DNA of 37,204 bases from Alphaproteobacteria bacterium (GTDB taxonomy: Bacteria; Pseudomonadota; Alphaproteobacteria; GCA-2731375): positions 1-37,204 of the forward strand of contig JAPKBD010000006.1 of NCBI GenBank assembly GCA_028824965.1. Direction: 5' to 3'. The notes under the pieces are model-generated. The model made no database searches, was not told where the DNA came from, and saw only the letters and a program-made list of their open reading frames with translations. Below, in pieces: positions 22,688-27,952 of the stretch. The position numbers were made by a program, and so were the translations under genes. Within the stretch, counting starts at the first letter, position 1; each line of letters begins with the position of its first letter.

Positions 22688-23881
22688 ATGAGCGAGAGTA
22701 AACTGCCCCTAGACGGCATCCGCGTACTTGATCTGACCCACGCCCGTGCCGGACCCACCGCCGTGCGTCAGTTGGCGGATTGGGGGGCGGACGCGATTAA
22801 GATCGAGATCCCAGTCGATAAAGACTCCGGTCAGGGATTGGGTGGCGCGCGCCACGGCCCTGATTTCTTAAACCTGCACCGCAACAAGCGGGCCATCAGC
22901 CTGAACCTGAAGACAACCGAGGGGCTGGAGATTTTCATGGCCCTGGCCAAGGACGCCGACATCATCGTCGAAAATTTCCGCATGGAAGTGAAACATCGTC
23001 TTGGCATCGACTATGAAAGCGTCAAGGCGATCAACCCGCGCATCATCTATGGCTCCATCTCCGGCTTCGGGCAGACCGGACCAATCTCGAAACGCGCTGG
23101 CGTGGACCAGATCGCCCAGGGCATGGGTGGCTTAATGTCCATCACCGGCCTGCCGGGACAAGGCCCCGTGCGCGTCGGCATTCCCATCGCGGATCTGACG
23201 GCGGGGATGTATCTAGCCCAGGGTATCTTACTGGCCCTGATCGAACGAGGCCAATCGGGGATGGGCCAATGGGTCCACACCTCGTTATTAGAGGCGCAGA
23301 TTTCCATGCTGGATTTCCAGGCAGCGCGCTGGTTGATCGACGGGGATGTGCCCGGCCAGGCCGGCAACGATCACCCTACAAACATACCCATGGGTGCTTT
23401 CAAAACCCTGGACGGCGCGGTCAATATCGCCGCCTCGGGCGGTCGGTTATGGATACGGTTTCTGGAAGTCGCAGGCGCGGAAGAGCTGGCCGAACATCCC
23501 GATTTTGAAACCGCACAATTACGCTCCGCCAACCGGGCGCAATTGAATAAAATCGTCGGCGAAATCATGGCCAAACGCACCAGCCAGGATTGGATTGAGT
23601 CCCTAAGTGACGCCGGCGTTCCCTGCGGCCCCATTAACGCCATCGATCAAACCTTCGCCGAACCCCAGGTCCAACATCTGGGCATTGCCACGCCCATGCA
23701 GCATCCCATCAAGGGTGAAGTCATGGTCGTCGGCCAACCGGTAAACCTCGAACGCACCCCACAACCAGAGGAAATCCGCCTTCCCACACCGGAAGCGGGC
23801 GGCAATACGGATGAGGTGCTGGCGGATCTTGGTTATGATCAGGCGCAAATTGACGCGCTACGCAGTAAAGGCGTGATTTAG
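22688..23881 (+). CDS. family III CoA-transferase (CaiB/BaiF)
   Basis: A 397-residue CaiB/BaiF-type CoA-transferase that moves CoA between organic acids through a covalent aspartyl-CoA intermediate, working as interlocked dimers. Family blocks are GIRVLDLTHARAGPTAVRQL, ADAIKIEIP, FLNLHRNKRAISLNLK, ADIIVENFR and IIYGSISGFGQTGP. The catalytic Asp is expected in VGIPIADLTAGMYLAQG. The C-terminal lobe ends with the typical GGNTDEVLADLGYDQAQIDALRS arrangement. A Shine-Dalgarno-like AAAAGGG precedes ATG 22688. Substrate unknown; with the acyl-CoA synthetase and acyl-CoA dehydrogenase in the window it suggests catabolism of CoA-activated acids. Confidence 0.94.
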   Translation: MSESKLPLDGIRVLDLTHARAGPTAVRQLADWGADAIKIEIPVDKDSGQGLGGARHGPDFLNLHRNKRAISLNLKTTEGLEIFMALAKDADIIVENFRMEVKHRLGIDYESVKAINPRIIYGSISGFGQTGPISKRAGVDQIAQGMGGLMSITGLPGQGPVRVGIPIADLTAGMYLAQGILLALIERGQSGMGQWVHTSLLEAQISMLDFQAARWLIDGDVPGQAGNDHPTNIPMGAFKTLDGAVNIAASGGRLWIRFLEVAGAEELAEHPDFETAQLRSANRAQLNKIVGEIMAKRTSQDWIESLSDAGVPCGPINAIDQTFAEPQVQHLGIATPMQHPIKGEVMVVGQPVNLERTPQPEEIRLPTPEAGGNTDEVLADLGYDQAQIDALRSKGVI

Positions 23882-24174
23882 GAAGCGACTGCAATACGCG
23901 ACTACGTGCCACGCGGCGTTATGCCGGCACTGCCGGACTTTCAGCTGGCACAAATTAGTCCTGGCTCTCAATAGTTTTCCGGACTTTAGCCTCTGCGGCA
24001 ATCGTTCGTATAAATCTGGTATTTTTATGCCCTGCGCGCCGAATGCCGCCGATTGCAAATCCATCAATCATCTATCCCATGGTTGTCGATAAGCGTCGGC
24101 CAACTATATTATAAAAAACTGAAAGATCATTGTGCCAGTCATTACATGGACCAATTCTTGGGGGAGCAACAATC
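23882..24174. other. gene-poor gap with a possible promoter at its right end
   Basis: 293 bases between the CoA-transferase and lipoprotein genes. Near the left end CCGGCA and TGCCGG (23924-23936) form a compact palindrome that may aid termination. Near the right end TTGTCG (24083-24088) and TATTAT (24107-24112), 18 bases apart, could be the lipoprotein promoter. A 69-codon minus-strand frame at 23858-24067 has no recognisable character. I see nothing else. Confidence 0.4.
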
Positions 24175-24639
24175 ATGTATCCAGTGCTTAGAAAATTCAG
24201 TCTCCTGGCGGCCGCCCTGATCATGATTACGGCTTGTGCCGAGACCCGAACTTTGATGCCGACGCCAAACCTCTATGTCGAAGAAAAATCAAAGCTTTTC
24301 GGTGAATTGCCGAAAGAATTTACATCAACCCACGTCGAAATGATTTATGTCACCGACCGCGCGCCTGAAAAGGACAAAAACGGCAACCTTCATTATGGCT
24401 ACAAACGCTCTAATTCAGTGGCAATTGGGACAACGGTCATTGATCTTGGCCAGAATACAAGCTGGGGCGATTTGCTCAAAGCCAGCCGAACACATTCCCG
24501 GTTTGGCAAGTTCGCACTGCGGACAGTTTCGACAGAGGAGTTTTTGCGCCTGCCCGATACGCCAACAGCTTATGAGGTAATCGATGGCAAGGTTGTAGAA
24601 GACGCTGAAACCGTAAAAAAGATATTCAGTGCAACATAG
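24175..24639 (+). pseudogene. lipoprotein with truncated DUF900-type hydrolase N-terminus
   Basis: 154 residues from ATG 24175, preceded by GGGGGAG at 8 bases. A lipoprotein signal reads LLAAALIMITAC, with the lipid-bearing Cys21. The segment EMIYVTDRAPEKDKNGN, then YGYKRSNSVAIGTTVIDLG, and the later LRTVSTEEFLRLPDTP resemble the N-terminal region of DUF900/COG4782 alpha/beta hydrolases. In those proteins the hydrolase core with its GxSxG nucleophile follows, but here the frame ends at TAG 24637-24639 without it. Immediately beyond lies the 3'-truncated end of an opposite-strand AMP-binding gene. So this is most likely a gene cut by a deletion or rearrangement. A small intact lipoprotein is the alternative. 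Confidence 0.6.
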
Positions 24640-24959
24640 CCAAGGCCGGCCTTCAAGACGCCAATCGTAGCCATCACTTTTTCCGGCGTGTGCGCCATCA
24701 GTATCGGGACAAGTCCCGGTTCTAATCTGCCAAGGCTGAGCAGAGAGTGGGCAACACGATTAGCCTGTTCGTTGAGAGAGCGGTAGCTGATCGCCCGCGT
24801 CCCGGCCTTTATCGCGGTATGATCCGGAGTCCGTTTAACGCGCCGCTCTACAAGACCAATGATAGACCCTAAAGCCGGCGATATTTCGAGGCGTGAGAAA
24901 CCAGGCGCTGGCTTAACTTGACCTTCCAACCAAGCAGCCTGGCTTTGCAGCCTATTCAT
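24570..24959 (-). pseudogene. N-terminal fragment of an AMP-binding (adenylation) enzyme
   Basis: A 129-residue minus-strand frame from ATG 24959. After a helical lead it reads VERRVKRTPDHTAIKAG, then ISYRSLNEQANRVAHSLLSLG and MATIGVLKAGLGYVALN. This is the beginning of an adenylate-forming domain of the NRPS or acyl-CoA ligase type (typical core A1: GVLKAGxAYVPLDP). Homology-like sequence stops at about 24625, where the next residues (IFFTVSASS) are simply the antisense of the lipoprotein fragment. The rest of the enzyme, including the P-loop and catalytic Lys, is absent. So it is a decayed or truncated gene fused tail to tail with the lipoprotein remnant. It cannot encode an active ligase. 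Confidence 0.75.
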
Positions 24960-25007
24960 CGGCGCTCCTCCATATCGTCAAGCAATCAATATCATGCCCT
25001 CAGCGCG

Positions 25008-25427
25008 TTATCCCAATTCCGCCATGATCTTTTTATAGATCGCTTCGATCTGTCCCATATCACCTGGAGCGTGGCCCCAGTTCAACAGGGCACCGTCGTT
25101 CAGGCGACGGGGGAATATGTGGCTGTGATAGTGATAGACGGTCTGCCCGGCTGCCGGGCCATTGGCCTGAATGATGTTGATGCCTTCGGGTTCCAACGCC
25201 GCCTCAATCGCGCGGGCGACAATTTGGGCGGCAGGTAGCACGGCTGCCAGGTCGGCAGGGTCTGCGTCCAACAGGTTGGAGGAATGCGCCTTTGTGATGA
25301 CCAGGCAATGGCCGTCGTTGAACGGATTGATATCCATCATAACATAGGTACGTTCGTCCTCGTACAGCTTGAACGAAGGGATATCGCCGGCAATTATTTT
25401 GCAGAATATGCAATCCGTATCCGCCAT
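25008..25427 (-). CDS. HIT family nucleotide-binding hydrolase
   Basis: A 139-residue histidine-triad protein, a small cytoplasmic hydrolase of nucleoside phosphoramidates or dinucleotides. It starts CIFCKIIAGDIPSFKLYED, with the CxxC typical of bacterial HIT proteins, and has DINPFNDGHCLVITKAH. The triad is HYHSHIFPRR, with the usual HxHxH pattern although the intervening residues are Tyr and Ser rather than hydrophobic. The C-terminus IEAIYKKIMAELG is helical. ATG 25427 is preceded by AGGAG at 7 bases. It is divergent from the zinc-ribbon membrane protein gene at 25536. Physiological substrate unknown, as for most bacterial HIT proteins. Confidence 0.94.
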   Translation of the reverse strand: MADTDCIFCKIIAGDIPSFKLYEDERTYVMMDINPFNDGHCLVITKAHSSNLLDADPADLAAVLPAAQIVARAIEAALEPEGINIIQANGPAAGQTVYHYHSHIFPRRLNDGALLNWGHAPGDMGQIEAIYKKIMAELG

Positions 25428-25535: not shown

Positions 25536-25970
25536 ATGTCCAGAGACAGCATATTGGTAATGTTGCTCGCCGCGCAATTCTTCGCGCCATTTCTGTTGGC
25601 CTTGTTATTCAGCCGCCGCTCCAGAACCTCGCCGGCAGAAAGCAGCGGTCACATGGCCCCAAAAGGTGTGACAGGAAAAAATATGGCGAAAAAAAGCATG
25701 GCCCCGCCACAACATGGTGACTGGCCACTGATCACGGAATTCGCCTATCGCCGGGACTATTTCAGACGCTGGGTCATCGCCGGAGCTTTTGGATCGGTGG
25801 TTCTGGGATTGGCGGGGATGTATCTGTCCGTCATTGGGGTGCTGTTTCTATGCCCCCTTTATGGTGCATTGATGCACCTACGCTGCCCCGGTTGCGACGC
25901 CACCACGACAGTAAAGGGCGTCACGGATGGCAATTATTGTCGTCGCTGTGGTCAGTTGTTGCGACTATAG
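25536..25970 (+). CDS. small membrane protein with C-terminal zinc ribbon
   Basis: A 144-residue protein I do not recognise as a named family. Residues 5-25 (ILVMLLAAQFFAPFLLALLF) form one membrane helix. A basic, Ser/Pro-rich linker of about 45 residues follows. Residues 80-115 (WVIAGAFGSVVLGLAGMYL, then VIGVLFLCPLYGALMHL) make two more. The C-terminus has two CxxC pairs, LRCPGCDATTT and NYCRRCGQLL, 18 residues apart, as in a treble-clef or zinc-ribbon module. ATG 25536 has CAAGGA upstream. Divergent from the HIT gene; convergent with the FemAB-like gene, with a 22-base gap. Function unknown; a membrane-anchored zinc ribbon suggests a structural or assembly role, but that is only inference. 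Confidence 0.8.
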   Translation: MSRDSILVMLLAAQFFAPFLLALLFSRRSRTSPAESSGHMAPKGVTGKNMAKKSMAPPQHGDWPLITEFAYRRDYFRRWVIAGAFGSVVLGLAGMYLSVIGVLFLCPLYGALMHLRCPGCDATTTVKGVTDGNYCRRCGQLLRL

Positions 25971-25992: not shown

Positions 25993-27174
25993 CTATTCCA
26001 AGGACTGCCGCTCACCTTTGCGGAAGGGGCCCCGTTCGGCCAGGTATTCAATGTGGTCGACAACCTCTGCCCGCTCATGCTCCAGATAATTGGCGACGGC
26101 CTCACGAAACCCAGGGTCACGGATATAGTGGGCGCTGTGGGTTTCGGTGGGGCGATAGCCACGGGCAATTTTGTGGGGGCCCTGGGCGCCGGCCTCTACG
26201 CGGGCCAATCCGTGCTGGATGGCATAATCAATGGCTTGGTAGTAACAAACCTCAAAATGTAGAAACGGATGATCTTCGATACAGCCCCAATAGCGCCCAA
26301 ATAGCGCCTCTTCCCCGATTAGGTTCAGAGCACCAGCGACATAGTGGCCTTCGCGTTTGCACATGACCAACAAAATTCTGTCCGCCATGCTTTGTGTGAT
26401 CAACGTGAAAAAGCGCCGGTTCAAATAGGGCTCCCCCCATTTGCGGCTGCCGGTGTCCGTGTAGAATTGATAGAAGGCGTCCCAATGCGCTTCGGTCAAA
26501 TCGCTGCCCGTGATCCATTCGATCTCTATCCCGGATTCCAAGGCACCGCGACGTTCCCGGCGAATGGCCTTGCGTTTGCGTGATGATAAATCACCGAGGA
26601 AATCATCAAAGCTGCCATAATTTTGATTGTACCAATGGAATTGCTGATCTGCGCGTTTCAGATAGTCCGCATCTTCCAACAGATCCCATTCATCCTCAGG
26701 CAAAAAATTGACCGAGATGGTCGCAATGTTCAAATGTTCCGCTGCACCGATCAGGCCTGCCGCCAACTGCCGTTGAACAGTGACTTTGTCCTCGCCCTCC
26801 CGCACCAACAAACGTGGGCCGGTGGCAGGTGTGAACGGTACCGCCGCCAGCAATTTCGGGTAATAGCGCCCGCCCGCACGCTCATATGCATCAGCCCAGC
26901 CATGATCGAATATGAACTCCCCCCGGCTATGACTTTTCACATAAAGGGGCACACAGCCCAAGGGACCACCACCTTCTGGGTCATCCAACAGTAGGTGCAC
27001 CGGCCCCCAACCATTACGGCCATGGACGCTTTCACTTTCTTCCAACGCCAGCAAAAATGCGTGGGAAAGAAACGGGTCGGATGTTCCCGCACAGGCATCC
27101 CAATGGGCCGCGGGTATCTCGGCAATCGATTGCACAATACGTGCCACCACGCCCTCTTCTTCCTGTTCCGCCAT
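25993..27174 (-). CDS. FemAB-like GNAT protein (peptidogalycan biosynthesis/recognition, DUF482)
   Basis: A 393-residue protein of the PF04339-type family, two tandem GNAT-like domains related to Fem aminoacyl transferases. Typical blocks are WDACAGTSDPFLSHAFLLAL at the start and the VPLYVKSHSRGEFIFDHGWA strand. Later blocks are YYPKLLAAVPFTPATGPRLL, RKRKAIRRERRGALESGIEI and CYYQAIDYAIQHGLARVEAG, followed by QGPHKIARGYRPTETHSAHY. I chose ATG 27174; a GTG four codons upstream (27186) is also possible. The family is common in proteobacteria and thought to act on envelope components or amine groups, but no reaction is settled. Downstream of the GDPD gene on the same strand, with a 28-base gap. 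Confidence 0.9.
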   Translation of the reverse strand: MAEQEEEGVVARIVQSIAEIPAAHWDACAGTSDPFLSHAFLLALEESESVHGRNGWGPVHLLLDDPEGGGPLGCVPLYVKSHSRGEFIFDHGWADAYERAGGRYYPKLLAAVPFTPATGPRLLVREGEDKVTVQRQLAAGLIGAAEHLNIATISVNFLPEDEWDLLEDADYLKRADQQFHWYNQNYGSFDDFLGDLSSRKRKAIRRERRGALESGIEIEWITGSDLTEAHWDAFYQFYTDTGSRKWGEPYLNRRFFTLITQSMADRILLVMCKREGHYVAGALNLIGEEALFGRYWGCIEDHPFLHFEVCYYQAIDYAIQHGLARVEAGAQGPHKIARGYRPTETHSAHYIRDPGFREAVANYLEHERAEVVDHIEYLAERGPFRKGERQSLE

Positions 27175-27202
27175 ACTTAATCCCACTCAAACCCCTAAAA
27201 TT

Positions 27203-27952
27203 TTAGGGGCGAAACCCTTCAAAAATTATATTGTCCGTACAGCTGTCCAGGCGTCGCATCTCAGTCAAATCACGCACCGTATAGGTCAACACCGGAAGCC
27301 CCGCCGACCGTACGCGCGAAGCTGCGAAACAGGGCAACGCCGTCCTATCGTAGACCACAAAGTCCGGCCGCGCATCGTCCACATCGTACAAATATTGCAG
27401 GGCCAGACGACGCCACTGGGGATCGCTGGCCAGGGCATGCTGCGGCCCGCCGCTGTTTTGGCCCCGGTGCCAGTTCGGTGCCTGCTGGCGAAACCAAGCC
27501 AGGGCCCTGGGCTCAAACGATGTCACGGCAAAGGGCCCGGTGTAAACCTGCAGATCCTGGTATGCCGCCGCCTCAACCACGCCGATCTCGCCAAAGGCCC
27601 CGGCTCTGCTTTTGATCTCTACAATGACGGGGCAGCGACCATCAATCAGATCGAGAACCTGTGCCAGGCTTGGAATGGCATGCCCGCTTTGCCCCAGACG
27701 AAGTGCCTCCAAATACGCCGCATCATAGTCACCAATAGCCCCTTCGGCCCCGGTCATGCGTGACAGGCTCCAATCGTGAAAGACCATAGCCCGCCCGTCC
27801 GAAGACGCCTGGACATCGAGCTCCACCGCGTAGCCATCGGCCATCGCAGCGGCAAACGCCGGCAAGGAATTTTCCGGTATCCCGGCCGCCTCATCGTGCA
27901 AACCGCGGTGGGCAATGGGCTTTGCGTACAGCCAGTCCAGCGACGGTGTCAT
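27203..27952 (-). CDS. glycerophosphodiester phosphodiesterase
   Basis: A 249-residue cytoplasmic GDPD (UgpQ-like) that hydrolyses glycerophosphodiesters to glycerol-3-phosphate and an alcohol with a metal ion. The TIM-barrel motifs are all present: PIAHRGLHDEAAGIPENSLPA (catalytic His, Arg and Glu-Asn), AVELDVQASSDGRAMVFHDW (metal-binding Glu-Asp and the second His) and PVIVEIKSR. No signal peptide, so it should act on internalised or recycled headgroups. Its ATG overlaps the RidA stop in an ATGA (27949-27952), so the pair are coupled. Downstream is the FemAB-like gene at 28 bases. ugpQ is plausible as a symbol but no ugp transporter genes are present. Confidence 0.93.
   Translation of the reverse strand: MTPSLDWLYAKPIAHRGLHDEAAGIPENSLPAFAAAMADGYAVELDVQASSDGRAMVFHDWSLSRMTGAEGAIGDYDAAYLEALRLGQSGHAIPSLAQVLDLIDGRCPVIVEIKSRAGAFGEIGVVEAAAYQDLQVYTGPFAVTSFEPRALAWFRQQAPNWHRGQNSGGPQHALASDPQWRRLALQYLYDVDDARPDFVVYDRTALPCFAASRVRSAGLPVLTYTVRDLTEMRRLDSCTDNIIFEGFRP

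Follow-up and report, generated by a model that had tools for sequence, protein, structure and literature searches.

Two convergent genes in this stretch are both truncated at one sharp join, a plus-strand gene for a DUF900-type alpha/beta-hydrolase lipoprotein and a minus-strand gene for what is likely an NRPS-like adenylating enzyme. Both are held in a short insert between two conserved genes, at a site that is empty or carries different cargo in related genomes. There is a strong probability that two convergent genes were gained at this insertion spot and that one illegitimate deletion then left both 5' stubs. The features of the site are given here in coordinates of the window, which is the whole 37,204-nucleotide stretch of DNA analysed.

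22688 to 23881, plus strand: CoA-transferase family III gene, the left conserved flank (Pfam CoA_transf_3, 5.9e-111; 74–94% identical and syntenic in relatives).
23882 to 25007, no strand: insert that separates the CoA-transferase gene from the HIT gene convergent with it (GC 0.507, against 0.562 for the window).
24175 to 24639, plus strand: 5' stub of the DUF900-type alpha/beta-hydrolase lipoprotein gene (70% identical to a 428-aa relative over its first ~150 aa; hydrolase domain absent).
24621 to 24624, no strand: point where the stubs meet, leaving no more than 2 bases unassigned (24622–24623), from the alignments of both stubs and the sequence.
24570 to 24959, minus strand: 5' stub of a likely NRPS-like adenylation-domain gene (Pfam AMP-binding, positions 2–81 of 384, 1.9e-14; PDB NRPS chains matched to residue 111).
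25008 to 25427, minus strand: HIT-family protein gene, the right conserved flank (Pfam HIT, 5.1e-26).

The lipoprotein open reading frame starts with the ATG at 24175 and encodes 154 aa, starting M-YPVLRKFSLLAAALIMITAC, with a signal peptide and the lipobox ITAC. The N-terminal lipoprotein region of a DUF900 hydrolase subfamily is present, and three relatives match it at 70%, 63% and 44% identity. The first of these, in G006, is an intact frame of 428 residues (L043:10610–11893) aligned with the stub over about residues 9–150, and its DUF900 domain lies at residues 157–390 (1.2e-48). Among the 15 family genomes searched, this one included, G006 is the only congener with a homologue of the lipoprotein. 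The relative in G021 is open for at least 260 residues up to the contig end, and that in a Lysobacterales MAG has 433 residues and includes DUF900. PF05990 is matched at 1e-46 to 1e-48 in the intact relatives and not at all in the stub; a Pfam search with the 154-aa protein returned nothing significant. Homology covers 24175–24621, where the last matching residues are VKK, and the IFSAT-stop that follows is read from the antisense of the neighbouring gene. The more distal placement of IFSAT by the aligner is a forced match. That the relatives can be followed to VKK and are then replaced by IFSAT-stop shows that this is a 5' stub from which the entire hydrolase domain is missing. The stub resembles the DUF900 alpha/beta-hydrolase (PF05990) lipoproteins in its N-terminal 149 aa, 70% identical to an intact member, but differs from them in that the PF05990 domain is missing. 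The homologues run well past the break point, which is the mark of a truncation pseudogene. A conserved family of 154-aa lipoproteins was considered and rejected, since all three relatives extend beyond the break.

The minus-strand open reading frame runs from 24959 to 24570 and encodes 129 residues, in which the AMP-binding domain is incomplete, reduced to profile positions 2–81 of 384. Homology is confined to 24624–24959, the last family codon being N at 24624–24626, while 24570–24623 is the antisense of the lipoprotein gene and provides the last 17 codons. The first 111–112 residues match NRPS adenylation regions as far as YVAL. The PDB matches are essentially all NRPS, with linear gramicidin synthase subunit A the best (about 1e-18). 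Identity is 38–39% to annotated NRPS genes carried on plasmids and 39%, as far as YV-L, to an 880-residue adenylation-carrier-thioesterase protein of G021. The best NCBIfam match is also an NRPS, with acyl-CoA synthetase models close behind and only a short stretch matched in either case. The stub is likely to be NRPS-like, and is not more firmly assigned because acyl-CoA ligase profiles match the short stretch as well. Like the NRPS adenylation domains (PF00501) it has the first ~80 domain positions, but it has neither the rest of the domain nor a carrier or thioesterase domain.

The two stubs abut directly, lipoprotein homology ending at 24621 and adenylation homology beginning at 24624, and the matches on both sides are far beyond chance. 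An earlier sequence-only reading had described two truncated genes meeting at an abrupt join, and the comparisons bear this out. It placed the loss of the hydrolase core of a DUF900-like lipoprotein at 24605–24637 and the end of an AMP-binding frame after YVALN at about 24625, each frame ending in the antisense of the other, and these break points are right; the NRPS-like enzyme that it proposed fits the likely nature of the adenylation stub. Its suggestion that a deletion or an inversion was responsible is probably right for the deletion. An inversion is unneeded, as one deletion between convergent genes suffices, and no inverted partner was found. As in other bacterial truncation pseudogenes, the stubs keep the 5' part, are without the catalytic core and end abruptly against unrelated sequence; the difference is that here one join cuts two convergent genes, each running into the antisense of the other.

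The genome is a draft of 505 contigs, about 94% complete, with a contamination estimate of 4%. In so fragmented an assembly, and with most congeners lacking a close homologue of either gene, the join could be a chimera that brings distant parts of the genome together at 24621–24624. Such an error is unlikely because assemblers merge sequences through an overlap and none is visible, the join having neither a shared word nor an N run, and because the missing half of the lipoprotein gene is nowhere else in the assembly, where a search with the intact protein found only the stub. The window contains no N, and no repeat or transposon is present at the join. Words of more than 9 bases across the join do not recur elsewhere in the window, the 131 bases around it find nothing beyond 22-base imperfect matches in the rest of the genome, and the join sequence is absent from the viral contigs searched. 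When the genome was searched with the rest of the G021 enzyme, 38 AMP-binding places were listed. The only one of these that was read, an open reading frame cut by the start of contig C48, starts deeper in the domain than the break point and resembles an ordinary acyl-CoA ligase. With C48 alone read among the 38 places, no convincing missing half of the adenylation gene was found in the genome. Both flanks are also syntenic with the sister genomes, which again speaks against a chimera.

In genomic variable spots, one pair of core genes flanks differing cargo, or none, among related species. The CoA-transferase/HIT boundary behaves in this way. The HIT gene is found at 1e-30 in 12 of the 15 family genomes searched (own included). 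The insert between it and the CoA-transferase gene, which holds both stubs, is 1126 bp here, and the gap is only 3–17 bp in the congeners G005, G009 and G010 and in G012, which belongs to another genus. In the closest congener, G003, the site has about 4.2 kb (L044:10310–14487), including genes named by eye from their sequence as an aldo/keto reductase, a dihydrofolate-reductase-like protein and a histidine kinase. In G002 and G007 it has about 3.5 kb (L048:6617–10214 and L050:7026–10502), with two acyl-CoA dehydrogenases and a glucosaminidase-like protein, likewise named by eye. The same flanks are thus empty in four relatives and enclose two other cargo types in three congeners, and no DNA is common to the insert and the cargo in G003, G002 or G007. 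The empty site is likely to be ancestral, because it is empty in another genus as well as in three congeners. By these comparisons the site is one of cargo exchange, flanked by convergent core genes, and the cargo that it has in this genome is eroded. Its likeness to other variable spots is in the differing or absent cargo between one pair of flanks; it differs in its small size (1–4 kb) and in showing no integrase or transposase gene among its listed ORFs. Two further genomes are suggestive only. G004 has a different gene pair after HIT, on a contig that ends before the CoA-transferase gene, and in G008 a stretch of N after HIT, a scaffold gap at the site, is followed by an acyl-CoA dehydrogenase gene (L097:5511–5670).

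The low GC of the insert, together with a GC3 of 0.52 in the lipoprotein stub, against about 0.60–0.69 in eight neighbouring genes, is consistent with a foreign origin. This lower GC, and the lack of either gene at the site in the closest sister species, would also be expected if the stubs had arrived already broken, as separate transferred fragments that met on insertion rather than by deletion in place. That history has a slim chance, somewhat below that of the assembly error, as it needs two truncations that face each other and end at the same base, for which a single deletion is simpler.

In the history preferred here, of gain followed by deletion, the boundary would tolerate insertions between its two convergent core genes, and the lineage would have gained at least two convergent genes, among them one for a DUF900 hydrolase lipoprotein and one for an NRPS-like adenylating enzyme. 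A single illegitimate deletion, with no detectable homology, would then have removed both 3' ends and whatever lay between, leaving the two 5' stubs tail to tail. Judged against its relative, the lipoprotein gene would have lost ~280 codons of its 3' end, while the A domain of the NRPS-like gene would be shorter by at least about 300 codons. At a minimum, the loss comprises the 3' ends of both genes; that a larger cargo or biosynthetic cluster filled the missing interval is speculation. The comparison with sister genomes that the sequence-only reading proposed yielded full-length lipoprotein relatives, while the deleted content was not recovered from the genomes searched. No locus with both genes was found in the 15 family genomes, in 385 genomes of the class or in a lipoprotein scan of wider genome contigs, and on plasmids the lipoprotein had no match and the NRPS matches were all distant. 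A sister genome with the intact pair, and with it the state before the deletion, was therefore not seen in the genomes searched. A broader possibility, held only tentatively, is that the boundary is an integrase-free spot where small metabolic cargo is captured time and again in the genus, with the stubs as the remnant of a lost NRPS-like biosynthetic cargo.

The retained lipoprotein codons have a dN/dS of ~0.1 relative to G006, a weak estimate as dS is near saturation, and the G006–G021 pair is similar. The deletion probably looks recent on this weak estimate, because dN/dS gives no sign of long decay. Both stubs are probably non-functional, although a low dN/dS is also what a stub retained for its function would show. 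It is very improbable that the 154-aa lipoprotein functions as a short form after losing its hydrolase domain: the frame is open and has a signal peptide and a lipobox, which together with the low dN/dS of the retained part would favour this, but the domain is present in both relatives of known full length, the third runs well past the break, and the last 5 residues are read from the antisense of an unrelated gene.

The stubs are ordinary gene remnants (pseudogenes) at a variable spot, and no new mechanism is indicated; a literature search found nothing specific. They provide a small and clearly bounded example of genes gained and then lost between two core genes, and their recognition guards against annotating one remnant as a short lipoprotein and the other as an AMP-binding enzyme. 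Differences between relatives are also seen beyond the HIT gene. At the next boundary, between a zinc-ribbon membrane protein gene (25536–25970 of the window) and a FemAB-like gene (25993–27186), G012 has a 2.4-kb insertion (L051:10400–12800). The window also has a GDPD-like gene at 27203–27952, flanked by the FemAB-like gene and a Rid-like gene, and G005 and G010 lack it at that position.
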